A DNA stretch of 40,546 nucleotides from contig JANLHZ010000099.1 of NCBI GenBank assembly GCA_024653775.1, positions 1 through 40,546 of the forward strand, in the 5' to 3' direction. Both the position numbers and the translations under genes were made by a program. The notes under the pieces are model-generated. The model worked only from the letters and a program-made list of their open reading frames with translations, was not told the origin of the DNA and ran no database searches. The first letter of the stretch is position 1, and every line of letters starts with the position of its first letter. This stretch comes from Planctomycetota bacterium. Lineage in GTDB: Bacteria; Planctomycetota; UBA8742; JACQVU01; JANLHZ01. Positions 366 through 23,743 of this stretch are shown in pieces.

Positions 366-400
366 GGGGGCCTCAGGTTCGACACGAACAAGAGACCCCC
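366..400 (-). terminator. Stem-loop downstream of the HEAT gene
   Basis: GGGGG (366-370) pairs with CCCCC (396-400), then CTC with GAG after one mismatch, and an inner GTTCG/CGAAC stem closes on ACA (377-389). It starts 20 bases past the stop at 421. There is no T-run on the minus strand, so it may be a processing or protective structure rather than an intrinsic terminator. Confidence 0.4.
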
Positions 401-420
401 ACTGAGGGATTGAGAATCGT

Positions 421-2652
421 TTAGTACAAGTCGCTGAGCTGGGTGCCGTTGACCTTGTAGTTGTGGTCGCGGGCGGTCACGCTGAACGCGCTGCATCCGA
501 ACTTGCTTTCGATCTCGCCGAGCGCGGAGACGATCTTTATCTGCACGAAGTAGTGTCGCTCGGTTTCGTAGGTTGCCACCAGGTGGTCGATCGCCCGGCG
601 ATTCCTGCCGATGCCGAGCGCGAGGCATACCGCGCTCCGGACTTCGGAGCTGTCCGAATTCAGGAGGTGGTTTTTGAACACGTCCGGAAGGTTCTCATCC
701 TCGTACAGCAACCCGAACGCTATCGACGCGTTCCAGATCAGGTCCGTGTTGTTCCGGTTTCTCGGATTCGCCAGCACGCTTTCCATCAGTCTGCGGTCGC
801 TCGTTAGCTGCTCCGCCTCCGGATTGCTCTGGTCGGACGCGTCGATCCCGAGATCGCGGTAGCTGAACGCGAGACCGTAGAACGCGTAGTGCCGGACGTC
901 GGCCCGCTCCCTTTCGTCGGCGACGCATTTTCTGAGCGCCGCGCGGACGACGCCGCGGGTTTCTACGCTCACGCGTTTCGAAAGAAGGCCGAGCGCGGTC
1001 GCGGAGGCGCTTCTGACGCTTGTGCTGTTTTCGCCCTCGCCGGACAGTTTCTGCGCCAGCGTTCCGAGGACGGCGTTCAGCTTCTGTTCGTCCGCTCCGG
1101 GAACGTCGTACATAATCGCAAGTCCGAGCGCCGCGAATCCGCGCTCCTCGATCGACCCTTCCGTGAGGAAGTGCGAAAGGACGGAGTGCGCGATGGTGCG
1201 ATGATTCCCGTTCGACGCGGCGATCCGAGCGAGCGCGACAAGGTGCATCTCGCGGGTGAAGAGGTCTTTCTCGCGCTCGCGATTCTCCGGATCGACGCGC
1301 TGCACGATCAGATTCACGAGGCCGTTCAGCTTCGCGTCGTCGTCGATCTTGCTGTAGCAGGAAAGCGCGACCGCGATACTCTGCCTGCGCGAAATCCCCA
1401 TTCCGTCGAACGTGAGGCACTGTTTCAGGAAGTCGAGATTCTCGGGAGTGTAGCCCACCCTGCCGAGCGCGCTAAGCGCGTGGCAAGAGACCTGCTCGCT
1501 TCGATGGTTCGCCTGGGCGCGGATCAGTTCGGACGCGCTGACGTCCTTCAAAATCTCGCAGGCGGAAAGAGCCGCAACTCCGATTTCGACCTCCACGTCC
1601 GGATTGTCGAGCGCGCGGTGGATGAATGCAACGATCTCGGAAACGTCCTCTTCCTGCTTCCTCGCGAAGTCGGCCATGAATCCGAGTCCGACAAGCGCGT
1701 AGCCGCGGACCATTATGTGCTCGGACGGATTCGCGATGACCCTCGAAAGCGCCTCGAAAGAATCCGTGTCGCCAAGCATCCCGACCGCCATATGCGCGGC
1801 GGCGCGGACGAAGTTCGACTCGTCGACGAGCAGCTTATCGAGCATGGCGCGATGCCGCGGGTAACCGACCTCGCCGATCTTCAGCGCGGCGTTGAGCCGG
1901 AGCATCCAGTTTTCGTTTTCGGACGCCTTCTTCAGCACTGCGAGCACCTTGTCGAGTTCGTCGTTCGTGATCGACTGGCGGTTCGCGATGGCTTCCTGAA
2001 TCCGCGCGAGCCGTTCTTCCGGAGTGTCGCCGAACGCGAGTATTCCTTCGCGGTTGCCGGACGCCCACCACGATTCCCACACCGTGTCGGGATCCTCGTC
2101 GATGACGTGCTCCGTCTGCTCTGGAGCCTGCCCGCCTCCGGTCTGGATCGCGGGGCCGCGATTGACTGTCGCCGGCGCGGACGGACGCGAAGTAGTCGGC
2201 CCCCCAGAAGTAGCCGGCGCCTGCGGAGCGCTAGGCGCGGACGGCCCGCTTGGCGGAGTCGCGACGTTCGGAACATTCGTCACCGGCGTCGGCGCTCCGA
2301 TAGTCGGAGGTGGCGTCAGCGCGGGCGGCGCTCCGATAGTCGGAGGAGGCGTCACGCCTCCCGGCGGCGGCGGCGCGGACACGCTCGGAGGCGGCGGAGT
2401 CGTGCTCGGCGGCCTTGTGGTGTTCGGCGGCATGGTTTGCGGCGGCCCGCTCGTCGCCGGCGGCGGAGGGGTGGCGGTAGGTGGACGAGTCAACGTAGGA
2501 TCCTGCGGCCTTGGAGGTCTTGGACTCGAACTTACTGGTGGCTTAGGGGTCCATTGATTGAACTGTCCACCATGCGCCGATGCTAAATCCGCCAGCGGTA
2601 CTACCAGTAAAACCGCGGCAACGAGAACACAAATTCTGGCACTCTTCCCCAT
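421..2652 (-). CDS. Secreted Pro-rich HEAT-repeat protein
   Basis: A 743-residue exported protein. It has a signal peptide (basic MGKSAR start, hydrophobic VLVAAVLLVV core, cleavage near ASA-HGG), then about 150 residues of Pro/Ala/Thr-rich low complexity with near-repeats of PPPTIGAP. The remainder is alpha-helical HEAT-like repeats (recurrent ALG.LG, A..ALG, VR..A motifs). HEAT solenoids are protein-binding scaffolds, so a periplasmic or surface binding role is inferred; no catalytic motif is seen. Start choice: an in-frame GTG at 2661 overlaps the Shine-Dalgarno AAGGAG (2666-2661), whereas the ATG at 2652 sits 8 bases after it, so the ATG is preferred. The gene stands alone and is followed by two hairpin elements. 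Confidence 0.85.
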   Translation of the reverse strand: MGKSARICVLVAAVLLVVPLADLASAHGGQFNQWTPKPPVSSSPRPPRPQDPTLTRPPTATPPPPATSGPPQTMPPNTTRPPSTTPPPPSVSAPPPPGGVTPPPTIGAPPALTPPPTIGAPTPVTNVPNVATPPSGPSAPSAPQAPATSGGPTTSRPSAPATVNRGPAIQTGGGQAPEQTEHVIDEDPDTVWESWWASGNREGILAFGDTPEERLARIQEAIANRQSITNDELDKVLAVLKKASENENWMLRLNAALKIGEVGYPRHRAMLDKLLVDESNFVRAAAHMAVGMLGDTDSFEALSRVIANPSEHIMVRGYALVGLGFMADFARKQEEDVSEIVAFIHRALDNPDVEVEIGVAALSACEILKDVSASELIRAQANHRSEQVSCHALSALGRVGYTPENLDFLKQCLTFDGMGISRRQSIAVALSCYSKIDDDAKLNGLVNLIVQRVDPENREREKDLFTREMHLVALARIAASNGNHRTIAHSVLSHFLTEGSIEERGFAALGLAIMYDVPGADEQKLNAVLGTLAQKLSGEGENSTSVRSASATALGLLSKRVSVETRGVVRAALRKCVADERERADVRHYAFYGLAFSYRDLGIDASDQSNPEAEQLTSDRRLMESVLANPRNRNNTDLIWNASIAFGLLYEDENLPDVFKNHLLNSDSSEVRSAVCLALGIGRNRRAIDHLVATYETERHYFVQIKIVSALGEIESKFGCSAFSVTARDHNYKVNGTQLSDLY

Positions 2653-2728
2653 ATCATACACTCCTTAGGGATTTAAAAGTCAAGACCTCAGCGGGCTTTA
2701 CGCAAACCCGTAGCCAAAGATTCCGGAA

Positions 2729-2860
2729 ATGCCGCGCGAGGCTCTGAAACGCCTCGAATCGGCGTTCTCCGCGACTTCAGACGTGGCTATCCCCGCAATG
2801 CGAAAGCGATCCGCTAAGCGCGAGGTGTTACTGGACACGCCTCCGGTTACGGGTTCGTAA
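2729..2860 (+). CDS. Possible 43-residue small protein
   Basis: A short frame beginning MPREALKRLESAF and ending PPVTGS, bounded upstream by an in-frame TAG at 2711. Its codons resemble the GC-rich codons of neighbouring genes and the product is rich in Arg and Lys with a helical N-terminal half. A perfect hairpin followed by a T-run overlaps its stop, as expected of a short transcription unit. Against it: only a weak ribosome site and no recognisable family. It could equally be a gene remnant or a non-coding leader. Confidence 0.3.
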   Translation: MPREALKRLESAFSATSDVAIPAMRKRSAKREVLLDTPPVTGS

Positions 2861-2868: not shown

Positions 2869-2898
2869 CGCACAAGTAAATCGAGTTTACTTTTCGAA

Positions 2899-3257
2899 CG
2901 TCCTTGTTCGCGGCGCAAGTTCGTAGTGACGCCGTCAGGCGTTTATATGCCCTCACGGGCACACTACGAGCGTCCCTGTTCGCGGCGCAAGTTCGTAGCG
3001 ACGCCGTCAGGCGTTTACATGCCCTCACGGGCACACTACGAGCGTCCCTGTTCGCGCGCAAGTTCGTAGTGACGCCGTCAGGCGTTTATGTGCCCTCACG
3101 GGCACACTACGAGCGTCCCTTGTTCGCGCGCAAGTTCGTAGTGACGCCGTCAGGCGTTTATATGCCCTCACGGGCACACTACAGACGTCCCTGTTCGCGG
3201 CGCAAGTTCGTAGCGACGCCATCAGGCGTTTACATGCCCTCACGGGCACACTACGAG
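2899..3257. repeat. Five tandem 71-72-bp units with three-way-junction fold
   Basis: Units start at 2899, 2971, 3043, 3114 and 3186. Each holds an outer inverted repeat (TCGTAGTG ... CACTACGA) enclosing two hairpins, ACGCC-loop-GGCGT and TGCCC-TCAC-GGGCA, so a single strand can fold as a three-way junction. Variation respects the fold: the T to C change in the outer arm of units 2 and 5 becomes a G-U wobble if the minus strand is the RNA, and unit 5 changes only a loop base. On that strand one loop reads GUGA, a GNRA tetraloop. A partial sixth unit follows. The array fills the gap between the divergent HEAT and acyl-CoA dehydrogenase genes. Confidence 0.85.
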
Positions 3258-3422
3258 CGTTCACTACCAAATCCCCACGCGCCGGGCGCTCTGGAAGCGA
3301 CCGGCGCGTCCAGCAATATGCTTCGTATGCGAAATAGTTTTATCAACTTGGTTGGCGAACTTCTCGCTTGCTGGTAATCTTAATTTACTGGAACCCTGAA
3401 ACCCTAAATCGTGGAGGATTAA

Positions 3423-5249
3423 ATGGCATTATCCGAATATCCGGTCAACGCGAGAGACGTCAAATTCGCTCATCTCGAATGGCTCAAAATCCAAGACGTC
3501 CTCGGCGTGGACGAGGAAATCTACAAGATGCTCCTCGACAACGGCGTCAAGTTCGCAAAGACCGAGCTTCACCCGATAAACGTAAACCTCGATCGCGAAG
3601 GATGCCGGCTCGAAGGGAACAAGGTCAAAACGCCGAAGGGACTGAAGGAGGCGTACAGTAAATTCGTCGCGGACGGCTACCTCGGAATGAACCATCCGGA
3701 GGAATTCGGCGGGCAAGAACTGCCGTTTTCGATGACGATCGGCGTGGACGAGATCCACGTCGGCGCGAGTCCCGCGTTCCACAATACGATCGGACTCTCC
3801 CGCGCCGCGGCGAATATGGTCCTCGAGATCGGATCCGACGAACAGAAGAAGAAATACGTCGCGAAACTCGTATCTGGCGAATGGCAGGGAACGATGTGCC
3901 TAACGGAGGCGGGCGCGGGCAGCGACGTCGGCGCGAGCCTCACGAAGGCAACCCCCGTGGACGAAACCAGGGGGCTTTACAAAATCCAGGGCACAAAGGT
4001 TTTCATCACGTCCGGAGATCACGATCTCACCGACAACCACATCCACGCGGTGCTCGCGAGGATCGAAGGTGACCCCGACGGAGTCAAGGGACTATCGCTA
4101 TTCCTGATTCCGAAGTTCCGAGTCGACGAAGCAGGTAGCATCGGCGAGTTCAATGACGTGAACTGCACCAAGATCGAAGAGAAAATGGGAATCCACGGCT
4201 CCCCCACCTGCGTTCTCAACTTCGGCGACAATAACAACTGCATCGGAGAACTCATCGGCGGACGCGGGCGCGGAATCCAGTCCATGTTCCACATCATGAA
4301 CGAGGAGCGCATGGCGGTCGGCGTGCAGGGAATGGCGGTCGGAAACGTCGCCTCGCTATACGCGCAGGACTACGCACATGATCGAATCCAGGGCAGCGAC
4401 ATCGGCGCGGGAAAGTCCATGTCGGGCCAGAAGGTCGCGATTGTAGAGCATCCGGACGTCCGCCGGATGATAATGACGATGAAGGGCTACATCGAAGGCT
4501 CCCGCGCGCTGCTGTACCGAACCGCGCTCGAGATCGACCTTTCGAAATTTGCCGATTCGGACGCTGACAAGGCGAAACACGAATCGAACATCGGATTCCT
4601 CACGCCGCTTTGCAAGGCGTATTGCAGCGACATCGGATTCGAGGTGTCGAGCATCGCGCTGCAAGTCTACGGCGGCTACGGCTACATCTCCGAGTATCCG
4701 GTGGAGCAGTACCTGCGCGATTCGCGCATAACGAGCGTCTATGAAGGCACGAACGGAATCCAGGCGATCGACCTGCTGTTCCGCAAGATCGCGGGAAGCC
4801 AGGGCCAGATTCTGATGCAGTGGGGCGAAGAGATTCAGGGATTCATCTCGGAGCACAAGGAGCACCCTCTGCTATCGAAGGAAGTGGCGAAGCTCGAAGC
4901 GGGCCTCGGGAAATACAGCGCGGTCAGCCAGACAGTGCTTATGGGACTCCTCGGCGGGAAGTACCGCGAGGTCGCGCTTACCGCGTCGCCTTACCTTCGC
5001 GCGACAAGCAACCTCGTCTGCGGCTATCTGCTGATGCAGCAGGCGGTCGTCGCGGCGGAGAAGGTCGCGTCTCTTCCGGCGGACCCGATGGAGCGCCGCG
5101 CGGCTGCCACGAACGATTCGGACCTCGCGTTCTACGACTCGAAGGTGCAGACGGCGAAGTTCTTCGTCAACCAGATTCTATCCCAGAACCGCTGGCTGCT
5201 CGAACAGTGCAGCGTCGAAGAGACTTCCGCCCTCGCGGCTGTGCTTTGA
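3423..5249 (+). CDS. Acyl-CoA dehydrogenase with extra C-terminal domain
   Basis: A 608-residue FAD enzyme of the long acyl-CoA dehydrogenase type, catalysing alpha,beta-dehydrogenation of acyl-CoA thioesters in fatty-acid (or aromatic or side-chain) beta-oxidation and passing electrons to ETF. Visible signatures are the LTEAGAGSDVGAS flavin/substrate motif, the late GGYGYISEYPVEQYLRD segment and VYEGTNGIQ with the expected catalytic Glu at about residue 441. Beyond residue about 460 a helical tail matches the acyl-CoA dehydrogenase C-terminal extension found in roughly 600-residue members. Start ATG follows GGAGG at 5-base spacing. The substrate cannot be told from sequence and no other beta-oxidation gene lies nearby. 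A GGGAGTA-type heptamer array begins right after the stop. Confidence 0.92.
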   Translation: MALSEYPVNARDVKFAHLEWLKIQDVLGVDEEIYKMLLDNGVKFAKTELHPINVNLDREGCRLEGNKVKTPKGLKEAYSKFVADGYLGMNHPEEFGGQELPFSMTIGVDEIHVGASPAFHNTIGLSRAAANMVLEIGSDEQKKKYVAKLVSGEWQGTMCLTEAGAGSDVGASLTKATPVDETRGLYKIQGTKVFITSGDHDLTDNHIHAVLARIEGDPDGVKGLSLFLIPKFRVDEAGSIGEFNDVNCTKIEEKMGIHGSPTCVLNFGDNNNCIGELIGGRGRGIQSMFHIMNEERMAVGVQGMAVGNVASLYAQDYAHDRIQGSDIGAGKSMSGQKVAIVEHPDVRRMIMTMKGYIEGSRALLYRTALEIDLSKFADSDADKAKHESNIGFLTPLCKAYCSDIGFEVSSIALQVYGGYGYISEYPVEQYLRDSRITSVYEGTNGIQAIDLLFRKIAGSQGQILMQWGEEIQGFISEHKEHPLLSKEVAKLEAGLGKYSAVSQTVLMGLLGGKYREVALTASPYLRATSNLVCGYLLMQQAVVAAEKVASLPADPMERRAAATNDSDLAFYDSKVQTAKFFVNQILSQNRWLLEQCSVEETSALAAVL

Positions 5250-5306: not shown

Positions 5307-5666
5307 ATGTCTGTAGAGAACTTTAAAGGCCTTATCGTGTGGCAGAAATCGATGAACTTTGTTGCCGGCATATATGAGGTTACGAAATCGTTTCCATCGG
5401 ACGAACGATTCGGACTAACGGCTCAAATTCGACGGGCAGCAGTTTCAGTTCCATCAAATATTGCCGAAGGAAATTCGAGGATATCGACAGCAGAATACAG
5501 ACAGTTTCTTTCCGTTGCGCGTGGATCGTTGGCGGAAGTCGAAACGCAACTTCTTATCTCACAGATGTTAGGTTTCGCAAATGAAAGCGATATCGAGTCG
5601 CTGTTCGCACTGAAACTGGAGATACACAAAATGCTATGTTCAATAATCAACAAACTCGTGACGTGA
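5307..5666 (+). CDS. Four-helix-bundle protein (23S rRNA IVS-type)
   Basis: 119 residues with the hallmarks of the four-helix-bundle family first known from ORFs in intervening sequences of 23S rRNA genes: an F..LIVWQK-like start, FGLTAQIRRAAVSVPSNIAEG in the middle, and EYRQFLSVARGSLAEVETQL. Such proteins form pentameric bundles; their biological role is unsettled. Length is normal for the family. An AGAGG ribosome site precedes the ATG. The gene is flanked by inverted heptamer arrays (5254-5274 and 5693-5713) and followed by an 8-bp hairpin, which suggests a small self-contained module placed between two unrelated genes. Confidence 0.9.
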   Translation: MSVENFKGLIVWQKSMNFVAGIYEVTKSFPSDERFGLTAQIRRAAVSVPSNIAEGNSRISTAEYRQFLSVARGSLAEVETQLLISQMLGFANESDIESLFALKLEIHKMLCSIINKLVT

Positions 5667-11059: not shown

Positions 11060-11108
11060 TTAATTCTTAACTATTAACTATTAACTATTAATTGTTAATT
11101 ATTAATTA
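11060..11108. repeat. Seven perfect-phase heptamers TTAAYTN
   Basis: Seven consecutive 7-bp units: TTAATTC, three TTAACTA, TTAATTG, two TTAATTA. The last unit contains the stop codon (11106-11108) of the minus-strand radical SAM gene, so on the sense strand the array begins exactly at the stop. Confidence 0.85.
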
Positions 11109-12731
11109 TTCGCGGGGTTTCGGGAGGAACCTGCGCAGATAGCCCGCGACCCGCACGGCTTTGGTGGTGCGAAGTCTGTCAAGCTCCTCGCGGGTTTGTT
11201 CGAGCAGCTTGGAAGTCTCCGCGAGACGTTCGACTTCCTGCGCGTGCAGGCTGCGCGCCTTGACGAGCTGGTCCCGCGTGCGGTAAAGCTCGCTCGAAAT
11301 CTCTTCGTGGAACCGTCCGATCTGCGCAAAGTGATCCTCGTCCGAAAAATCGTAACCGCCGCCGAAGTTCGGGAATATCTCTCGCAGACGACTCTCCAGA
11401 AGCTGTTTCCGCCTCAGTCTGATGAGAAGGTTGTTCGAGTCGTCCTTCAGCCGCCACTCGGAGCCGTCGCCCTCCACCTGGAACTCATCCCGTCGATCGT
11501 AGATCCACGAGTCCGGGACCATCGTCATCACGTTCACGGACGCCACCGCGTCGATCCACGGGCTGTTCTCGCGAAGGAATTCGACGCTTTCGACAAGATG
11601 CTCCTCCGTCTCTCCGGGGTAGCCGACGATGAGGTTGATCAGCACCTTGATCCCGGCTTTGCGGGTGCGTTTGAAAACGTCGCGGGCCTGATCGAGCGTG
11701 AAGCCCTTGTTCATCCTCTTAACGATCTCCGCGCAGCCGCTCTCAAGACCGAATTGCAGCGCCCAGCATCCCGCGAGCTTCATTCGTTCGAGGAGTTCGT
11801 CCTTCATTCCGTCGCGGATGATCGCGTTCCCGCCCCAGCGCACTGGAAGCCCGCGTTCGATCATTTCGTCGGCGAACGCGCTCATCGCCTTCAGATTCCC
11901 GGTAAGAGTCAGATCGCCGAACCAGATGTTGTCTGCGTTGTAGCGCTGGTGGTAGTATTCGAGCGCGTTCGTCAGCGTCTCAGGCGGCGTGTTGCGATAC
12001 TTGGGCCAGAGCTGGATGTCGTTGCAGAACCTGCACTTTCGCGTGCAGCCCCGCGAGAGCAGCGCCGGAATCGTGCTCATCCTGTTTTCGAGGATTCCGA
12101 ACTCGTCGAAGGTCGGAAACGGCACCTCCTCCATGTCGAGCAGCTTCCTTGCCTTGAACACGGGTGTCTCGATTCCGTCGTCACGGAACACTTCGATTTC
12201 ATCGGGCGTGGGCGTGCCATTCAGAATTCCGGGATCGCGCAGGATGTGATCCAGAACGTACTCGCCTTCCCCCATGACGAAAACGTCCGCAATGCCGGGC
12301 GCGATCTTTCTGCGCAGTACCTCGTTGCTGCACGAGACTCCACCCAGCACGACCTTCTTCTCCGGCGCGAGCCTTCGAACGCTTTCGATTACGCGGTTTG
12401 CGAACGGAACCGATGTATACAACGCCGAGAATCCGATTATCGGGTGCGAAGTGGCCGCGATGTTCCCGACGTGTTCGTCAATCTGGTCCGCGAACTCTTC
12501 GAAGCATCTGCCTGCGAGCCAGAATTCCTCTTCGCCGAGACGCCACGCGAGCCGCTGCACTTCCGGATTCGCGTTGAACAGCTTGACGTTCAGATCGTAA
12601 AGCTCCGCCACGTAACCCCTGCTCTTTAGATACGTCAGCAGCGACGCCACGCCGAGATGCGGCGTCTGCGGCTGCCACGGCGGCATCGGGACGAGCAGGA
12701 TCGAGGCTTTGGAGTTTTGTCCGCTGTTCAT
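11106..12731 (-). CDS. B12-binding radical SAM protein
   Basis: A 541-residue enzyme of the cobalamin-binding radical SAM class. Residues about 10-165 form the Rossmann-like B12-binding domain (LGVASLLTYLKSRGY early, GVADVFVMGEGE-like end). The radical SAM core follows with the [4Fe-4S] cysteines in RGCTRKCRFC (Cys229, Cys233, Cys236), then the GLESG segment and NLIVGYPGET. The C-terminal about 80 residues are a Glu/Arg/Leu-rich coiled coil ending in a basic tail. The class does methylations and C-C bond chemistry on lipids, cofactors and natural products; the substrate here is unknown, though the neighbourhood hints at lipid or glycan modification. GGAG lies 6 bases before the ATG. The stop codon is inside a heptamer array. 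Confidence 0.88.
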   Translation of the reverse strand: MNSGQNSKASILLVPMPPWQPQTPHLGVASLLTYLKSRGYVAELYDLNVKLFNANPEVQRLAWRLGEEEFWLAGRCFEEFADQIDEHVGNIAATSHPIIGFSALYTSVPFANRVIESVRRLAPEKKVVLGGVSCSNEVLRRKIAPGIADVFVMGEGEYVLDHILRDPGILNGTPTPDEIEVFRDDGIETPVFKARKLLDMEEVPFPTFDEFGILENRMSTIPALLSRGCTRKCRFCNDIQLWPKYRNTPPETLTNALEYYHQRYNADNIWFGDLTLTGNLKAMSAFADEMIERGLPVRWGGNAIIRDGMKDELLERMKLAGCWALQFGLESGCAEIVKRMNKGFTLDQARDVFKRTRKAGIKVLINLIVGYPGETEEHLVESVEFLRENSPWIDAVASVNVMTMVPDSWIYDRRDEFQVEGDGSEWRLKDDSNNLLIRLRRKQLLESRLREIFPNFGGGYDFSDEDHFAQIGRFHEEISSELYRTRDQLVKARSLHAQEVERLAETSKLLEQTREELDRLRTTKAVRVAGYLRRFLPKPRE

Positions 12732-23450: not shown

Positions 23451-23556
23451 ATAAACCCCCGCCGCGGGAACCCTTCTAATCCAGTAAAGAACCATGGCTC
23501 AGATGCTGTCCACTATGCGAGTATCAGTGTGAAACGCAGATAAAGGAAAATTTGTA
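23451..23556 (+). repeat. 147-bp-period direct repeat, copy 1
   Basis: Begins ATAAACCCCCG and runs through a conserved 27-bp core (23518-23544, starting CGAGTATCAGTGTG and ending GCAGATAAA) to an AT-rich tail. It aligns with 23598-23704 through most of its length with scattered substitutions. Confidence 0.75.
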
Positions 23557-23597
23557 AATTTACACTACACGACACTGTATTATCGGCGTAATATTGT

Positions 23598-23704
23598 ATA
23601 AACCCCCGCTGCGGAAGCCATTCTCACTCAGGAAAAAACCACGGTTCAGACACTATCCATTATGCGAGTATCAGTGTGAAACGCAGATAAAGGATAATTT
23701 GTAC
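23598..23704 (+). repeat. 147-bp-period direct repeat, copy 2
   Basis: Same start (ATAAACCCCCG) and same exact 27-bp core at 23665-23691. The core is invariant while flanks have diverged, suggesting selection on the core or recent gene conversion. Confidence 0.75.
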
Positions 23705-23743
23705 TTCTATACGGCAATATAATTTATTATCTCCGATTCAAAT

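Follow-up and report, generated by a model that had tools for sequence, protein, structure and literature searches.

The window analyzed here, a stretch of 40,546 nucleotides from a Planctomycetota bacterium, carries a tandem array that very probably arose by local head-to-tail amplification of a REPIN, an element whose spread by a transposase of the RAYT class we infer. The element consists of two head-to-head GTAG-tagged REP hairpins, separated by a very short linker and forming a three-way junction in single-stranded DNA. REPINs of this type would spread, or would formerly have spread, through the action of a Y1/HuH RAYT (TnpA-REP) on the folded single strand, and the copy in the window would later have been multiplied fivefold together with ~19 bp of flanking DNA, whether by RAYT action at adjacent copies, by slipped replication or by unequal recombination. 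Because GTAG is base-paired in the folded dimer, a RAYT would need a single arm or an open form of the element. The array itself is thus mostly ordinary, a tandemly amplified REPIN and so a known kind of mobile element, but the analysis identifies as a REPIN an unannotated, assembly-breaking repeat family, within which several contigs of the host genome start or finish.

The array and its fold

TRF delimited the array to positions 2895 to 3260 of the window (no strand assigned), with a period of 72, 5.1 copies and 93% matches. Each unit of 71 to 72 bp is made up of a 53-nt core and a spacer of ~19 nt; the cores (consensus GTTCGTAGTGACGCCGTCAGGCGTTTATATGCCCTCACGGGCACACTACGAAC) start at 2919, 2991, 3062, 3134 and 3206, at spacings of 72, 71, 72 and 72. 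In each core, the outer stem encloses a pair of 5-bp hairpins, each closed by a 4-nt loop, and a linker of 5 nt. On the plus strand, unit 1 (2919 to 2971; 84.8 bits with the covariance model) reads GTTCGTAGTG, the hairpin ACGCC-GTCA-GGCGT, the linker, the hairpin TGCCC-TCAC-GGGCA and CACTACGAGC. The other cores, likewise on the plus strand, are unit 2 (2991 to 3043; 78.5 bits), with a T-to-C change at core position 9; unit 3 (3062 to 3114; 81.1 bits); unit 4 (3134 to 3186; 79.2 bits), with the altered 3′ end CTACAGAC; and unit 5 (3206 to 3258; 75.1 bits), with the same position 9 change and one loop change. Units 2 and 5 differ at a single base over 72, and duplication therefore accounts for at least part of the growth of the array. 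The covariance model, which for the window was trained on dispersed copies plus the five array units, matched the five array cores and nothing else in the window.

Folded as DNA, unit 1 reached −17.5 kcal/mol (z = −6.6 against dinucleotide shuffles) and unit 3 reached −16.9 kcal/mol (z = −5.4). Across the array units z ranged from −3.8 to −6.6, and for each unit tested none of 200 shuffles folded as well as the real sequence. An earlier note, made from the sequence of this DNA, had described five tandem 72-bp units that each fold as a three-way junction, and both the array and the fold were borne out, the latter far beyond chance. The note had also given each unit an 8-bp outer repeat around two 5-bp hairpins; the hairpins were as described, and the outer stem measured 6 to 8 bp in the array and reached 10 bp in copies elsewhere.

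A dispersed family of GTAG-tagged dimers

With a covariance model trained on 35 copies, we found at least 148 matches to the core in the host genome (a lower bound), mostly singles. Among the own-genome matches listed, complete dimers prevailed, and complete elements formed arrays in the window (five units), on contig C164 (five) and on contig C301 (four), and pairs on C160 and C72, all other complete matches listed being singles. The earlier note had proposed this count of singles and arrays, and had regarded a head-to-tail array of five between divergent promoters as unusual. That was overstated, since the same genome holds at least two more arrays, of five and four units, and two pairs; its rarity is also countered by the tandem arrays of cyanobacteria (see below) and by published accounts of REPINs and BIMEs, which include such arrays (PMC3116915, PMC8266576).

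With ORFs called crudely, 7 of the 59 loci in the sample fell within one, and the gaps of the 49 copies between two called genes were codirectional in 25 cases, convergent in 17 and divergent in 7. The family thus does not seem to be selected for a divergent setting, and its preference for codirectional and convergent over divergent gaps is shared by REPs (PMC3733652). The window array, which a probably spurious 157-aa ORF overlaps, stands outside the divergent class of this count, although its real neighbors are divergent.

A second palindrome contains or adjoins many of the 53-nt copies, and it exists both empty (GTGCCGGGCACTCTGGAAGTGACCGGCAC) and with the element at its apex. We found empty forms at L040, at L097 and, beside the array, at 3279 to 3307 of the window (GCGCCGGGCGCT-CTGGAAGCGACCGGCGC; no strand assigned), and filled forms at L023 and L028. 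This comparison of paralogous copies within one genome (the empty sites found were paralogous only, not orthologous) points to a dimer that acts as an insertable unit.

Other arrangements were seen as well. A longer subfamily (65 to 77 nt) has a longer linker, and many of its copies sit within a larger repeat with ends GTAACTGTTCACGGGGTAGTTCGC and GCGAACTACCCCGTGAACAGTT. The larger repeat, with inverted ends GTAACTGTTCACGGGGTAGTTCGC, was present at own-genome loci L093, L104, L106, L107, L108, L110 and L117, among others; an IS66 transposase was considered as its source and rejected, as the host genome has none. Arrays of the left hairpin only form a second set (C77, C160 and others), and at L018, L019, L023, L027, L028 and L051 the left hairpin GTTCGTAGTGRCGCCGTCAGGCGTTGAA is repeated directly upstream of a complete element, with a period of 28 (39 in L051).

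REP dimers (BIMEs and REPINs) are defined by GTAG beside a small hairpin, an inverted pair and high-copy dispersal, and the transposases associated with REPs are the RAYTs (TnpA-REP) (PMC3733652, PMC3116915, PMC8266576). Each arm of the host element consists of GTAG, TG and a 5-bp hairpin with a KTNA loop, the second arm being inverted, and GTAG accordingly lies 5′ of a small palindromic hairpin in both arms. One or two bases separate GTAG from the hairpin; the left-arm GTAG is invariant in the 35 own copies, and the right-arm CTAC is nearly so. The inverted pair occurs as one unit, as seen in the prevalence of complete dimers and in the nesting of the dimer in the second palindrome; the copies are numerous and mostly extragenic; the structure is kept by compensatory change; and the genome has Y1_Tnp genes, both points being taken up below. 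Judged from its sequence, the family belongs to the REPIN class on structure, copy number and arrangement, and its mobilization we infer.

Like the REPINs of Pseudomonas fluorescens SBW25, the elements have two inverted REP hairpins per dispersed unit, are mostly singlets and form ordered tandem arrays that include the flanks, with arrays also adjoining RAYT genes, as described by Bertels and Rainey (PMC3116915). Unlike them, the element is 53 nt long with a linker of 5 nt (next-neighbor distances in SBW25 are 71 and 110 bp [PMC3116915]), its arms differ in their stems, the tag that is shared is lengthened to GTTCGTAGT, and none of the host RAYTs has the host element in its flanks. Escherichia coli BIME-2 likewise consists of a REP and an inverted REP amplified head to tail (PMC8266576, PMC2817692), but E. 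coli REP stems are longer and bulged, and the window array lies between divergent genes, the setting least used by REPs (PMC3733652). The GTAG tag, short stem-loop, HH dimers and heterodimers are shared with the GTAG REP superfamily of Di Nocera et al., which has 24 families and was compared here by its described features; members have been reported from Cyanobacteria, Chloroflexi and the PVC group (PMC3733652).

Compensatory change and RAYT genes

Three own-genome copies have the left stem CGCC/GGCG replaced by CGAC/GTCG, a C-G pair becoming A-U. Only 2 of 500 shuffles reached the covariation score of the close own-genome set, which is weak by itself because just one pair varies on both sides. 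In G001, a genome from the same order, the layout is kept with different stems (GTAGTTCCGCC-GTGA-GGCGG and GACGCCC-TCAC-GGGCGCACTAC). A pattern that fixes TTCGTAGT, T.A in the loops and ACTACGAA and leaves the inner stems unconstrained matched at least 112 stretches across phyla; the matches listed come from Cyanobacteria, Chloroflexota, Planctomycetota and Acidobacteriota and also from Verrucomicrobiales/Lentisphaerae, Spirosoma, Desulfococcaceae and UASB270. Among these listed matches, 144 of 182 inner hairpins were fully Watson-Crick paired, against 11% with the arms shuffled, and at least 28 different perfect stems were represented; 49 of 85 distinct hairpins were perfectly paired (shuffle mean, 2.2; maximum, 9), and the junction base pair was complementary in 90 of 118 elements (35 ± 5 expected). 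The first loop base, which the pattern leaves unconstrained, was T in 229 of 236 hairpins, the loops listed being mostly TTTA or TTCA. The idea that the units are under constraint to fold is supported by compensatory change at each of these levels: within the genome, in the same-order relative and across phyla. The covariation test that the earlier note had suggested thus favors its view of a constrained folded structure rather than mere duplication, and the cross-phylum pattern agrees with its statement on dispersed single copies of similar layout in several phyla.

Five Y1_Tnp genes in the host genome exceeded the Pfam cutoff, of which at least one (L009) seems closer to an IS200-type transposase, and a scan of the flanks of all five found no host element. 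Y1_Tnp genes were present in 25 of 25 sampled genomes with the element, and one type of RAYT is accompanied by elements of this layout in three cyanobacteria. At L271 (Microcoleus), the RAYT adjoins 10 full head-to-tail elements with a period of 67 (one of 76, with a run of N); at L288, 5 complete elements and 1 partial element run to the contig end with a period of 67 to 68; and at L290, elements lie on both sides. As sequences, the L271 and L288 arrays have the same arrangement as the window array and the RAYT-side arrays of SBW25 (PMC3116915). Hairpins with GTAG or GGAG and KTNA loops occurred at 13 of 70 Y1 loci, against a shuffle mean of 0.5.

SELEX with a group 3 TnpA-REP showed that a T-T-N-A loop is required, and cleavage in the one system tested suffers when the first loop base is G (PMC8266576). 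The TTNA loops of the cross-phylum relatives match this requirement of the tested group 3 enzyme and the loop determinant of the Marinomonas group 3 REP, whereas the GTNA loops of the host family depart from it and correspond to the poor-substrate change in the tested system (PMC8266576). For the RAYT class of L011, the best relatives occur in the other two genomes whose elements have GTNA loops, a link to the element that we regard as suggestive only, because the flanks of these relatives lack the element. A Y1 fragment also lies near window-type elements at the Phycisphaerae locus L295, but it is not clearly recognizable as a RAYT. What counts against identifying the family as a REPIN, then, is the lack of a host RAYT flanked by the element, together with the GTNA loops, the paired GTAG and the restriction of empty sites to paralogous ones.

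It is conceivable, and we put it forward tentatively, that the compact Y-shaped dimers, with their tag GTTCGTAGT and their KTNA loops, constitute, in many phyla, a single distinct REPIN lineage or a convergent design that one RAYT class maintains. If so, the two GTAG guides would pair with each other in a closed junction, which would imply dimeric or sequential RAYT action unlike that of the single-hairpin systems studied so far. This wider family with its nine-base tag is the part most worth following, and its short, covarying members from different phyla, together with the RAYT-side arrays, could serve in tests of RAYT dimer recognition and amplification.

Several Y1 loci had features of their own. 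L012 (host C288:13721-16954; ORF 388 to 2730, minus strand) is the one purH that we found for the host and contains, within one 783-aa open frame, an in-frame RAYT-like Y1 transposase of ~200 to 250 aa, inserted between AICARFT_IMPCHas profile positions 58 and 77; six relatives have a contiguous purH, with open frames of 527 to 610 aa. A similar RAYT-like domain lies in frame in a DNA-methylase-like ORF at L085 (G001 C466:7449-10538), where GTAGCGCAGGCG hairpins read as VAQAS-type peptides. At ~1017 to 1280 of L010 (host C117:6312-9650), a RAYT is followed by five tandem copies of another palindrome (GTGACGTGCCAGTCACC..GGTGCCTGGCACGT).

The setting of the array and other readings

The array is flanked by a HEAT-repeat protein gene (421 to 2661, minus strand; Pfam HEAT_2, E = 5.5e-27) and an acyl-CoA dehydrogenase gene (3423 to 5249, plus strand; Pfam Acyl-CoA_dh_1, E = 1.1e-21), both transcribed away from it. 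The earlier note had placed it between divergent promoters; the genes are indeed divergent, but a consensus scan found no sigma-70-like promoter, and the description therefore holds for gene orientation only. This position would suit an array that binds proteins or relieves supercoiling between the two genes, insulating both, in that negative supercoils favor palindrome extrusion and gyrase, IHF or Pol I might bind, as in E. coli BIMEs; BIME-2 arrays of E. coli do bind gyrase (PMC2817692). The scarcity of divergent gaps among the intergenic copies (7 of 49) speaks against this reading, which we consider unlikely and which would in any case be a possible use of a REPIN array and not a different origin. 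The array may act on its two neighbors through supercoiling or bound proteins; it need not serve them at all.

We think it improbable that the array is a cis-acting structured RNA or regulatory leader, in which five transcribed Y domains would affect the mRNA of one of the divergent genes through stability, termination or protein binding. The strong folding and the compensatory changes would fit such an RNA, and transcription of REPs is common, with protection or termination of mRNA among the possible outcomes (PMC3733652), but no Rfam family matched the window at gathering score, no terminator-like site was found within the array, and copies occur in many unrelated contexts, including inside other repeats. 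The nearest relative has no such element upstream of its acyl-CoA dehydrogenase ortholog, which also speaks against a leader but says little about the array because that gene has a different neighborhood.

The wobbles bear on the same question, as the earlier note had favored a minus-strand RNA. The change at core position 9 gives a C.A mismatch on the plus strand and, as the note had stated, a G-U wobble on the minus strand, but the argument rests on this one change common to two units. Over the 35 dispersed copies, plus-strand wobbles outnumber minus-strand ones (35 versus 18 cells; 11 versus 7 distinct types), so that wobbles do not single out the minus strand. The GTGA that the note had read as a GNRA loop is the minus-strand loop of one hairpin; the loop of the other, in its own GTAG orientation, is GTCA, which is not GNRA, and the prevailing loops across phyla are TTTA and TTCA. 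A minus-strand RNA with a GNRA loop thus finds no support, and the result is a caution against reading the window array as a regulatory RNA or an operator cluster.

Plain tandem duplication of a random hairpin sequence without mobile origin is very improbable. The near identity of units 2 and 5 indicates that some of the array was duplicated recently, and duplication may describe the last step, the growth in copy number; as a full explanation it is refuted by the dispersal of the core at more than 100 places, by a layout kept across phyla while the stems change and by insertion in another repeat. A CRISPR-like array, for which the regular repeat-spacer periodicity found by TRF might speak, was rejected and has a negligible chance of being correct, as the spacers are near-identical between units and CRISPR spacers are unique.

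The window holds other features apart from the amplified REPIN. A stand-alone gene for an S23/bAvd-like 23S rRNA-intervening-sequence protein lies at 5307 to 5666 (plus strand; E = 7.3e-39); an Rfam scan found no rRNA in the window. An intergenic tandem duplication of 147 bp (1.9 copies, 79% matches) occupies 23451 to 23731, and the AT-rich heptamer TTAATTA is repeated ~7 times at 11060 to 11110, between two minus-strand genes.
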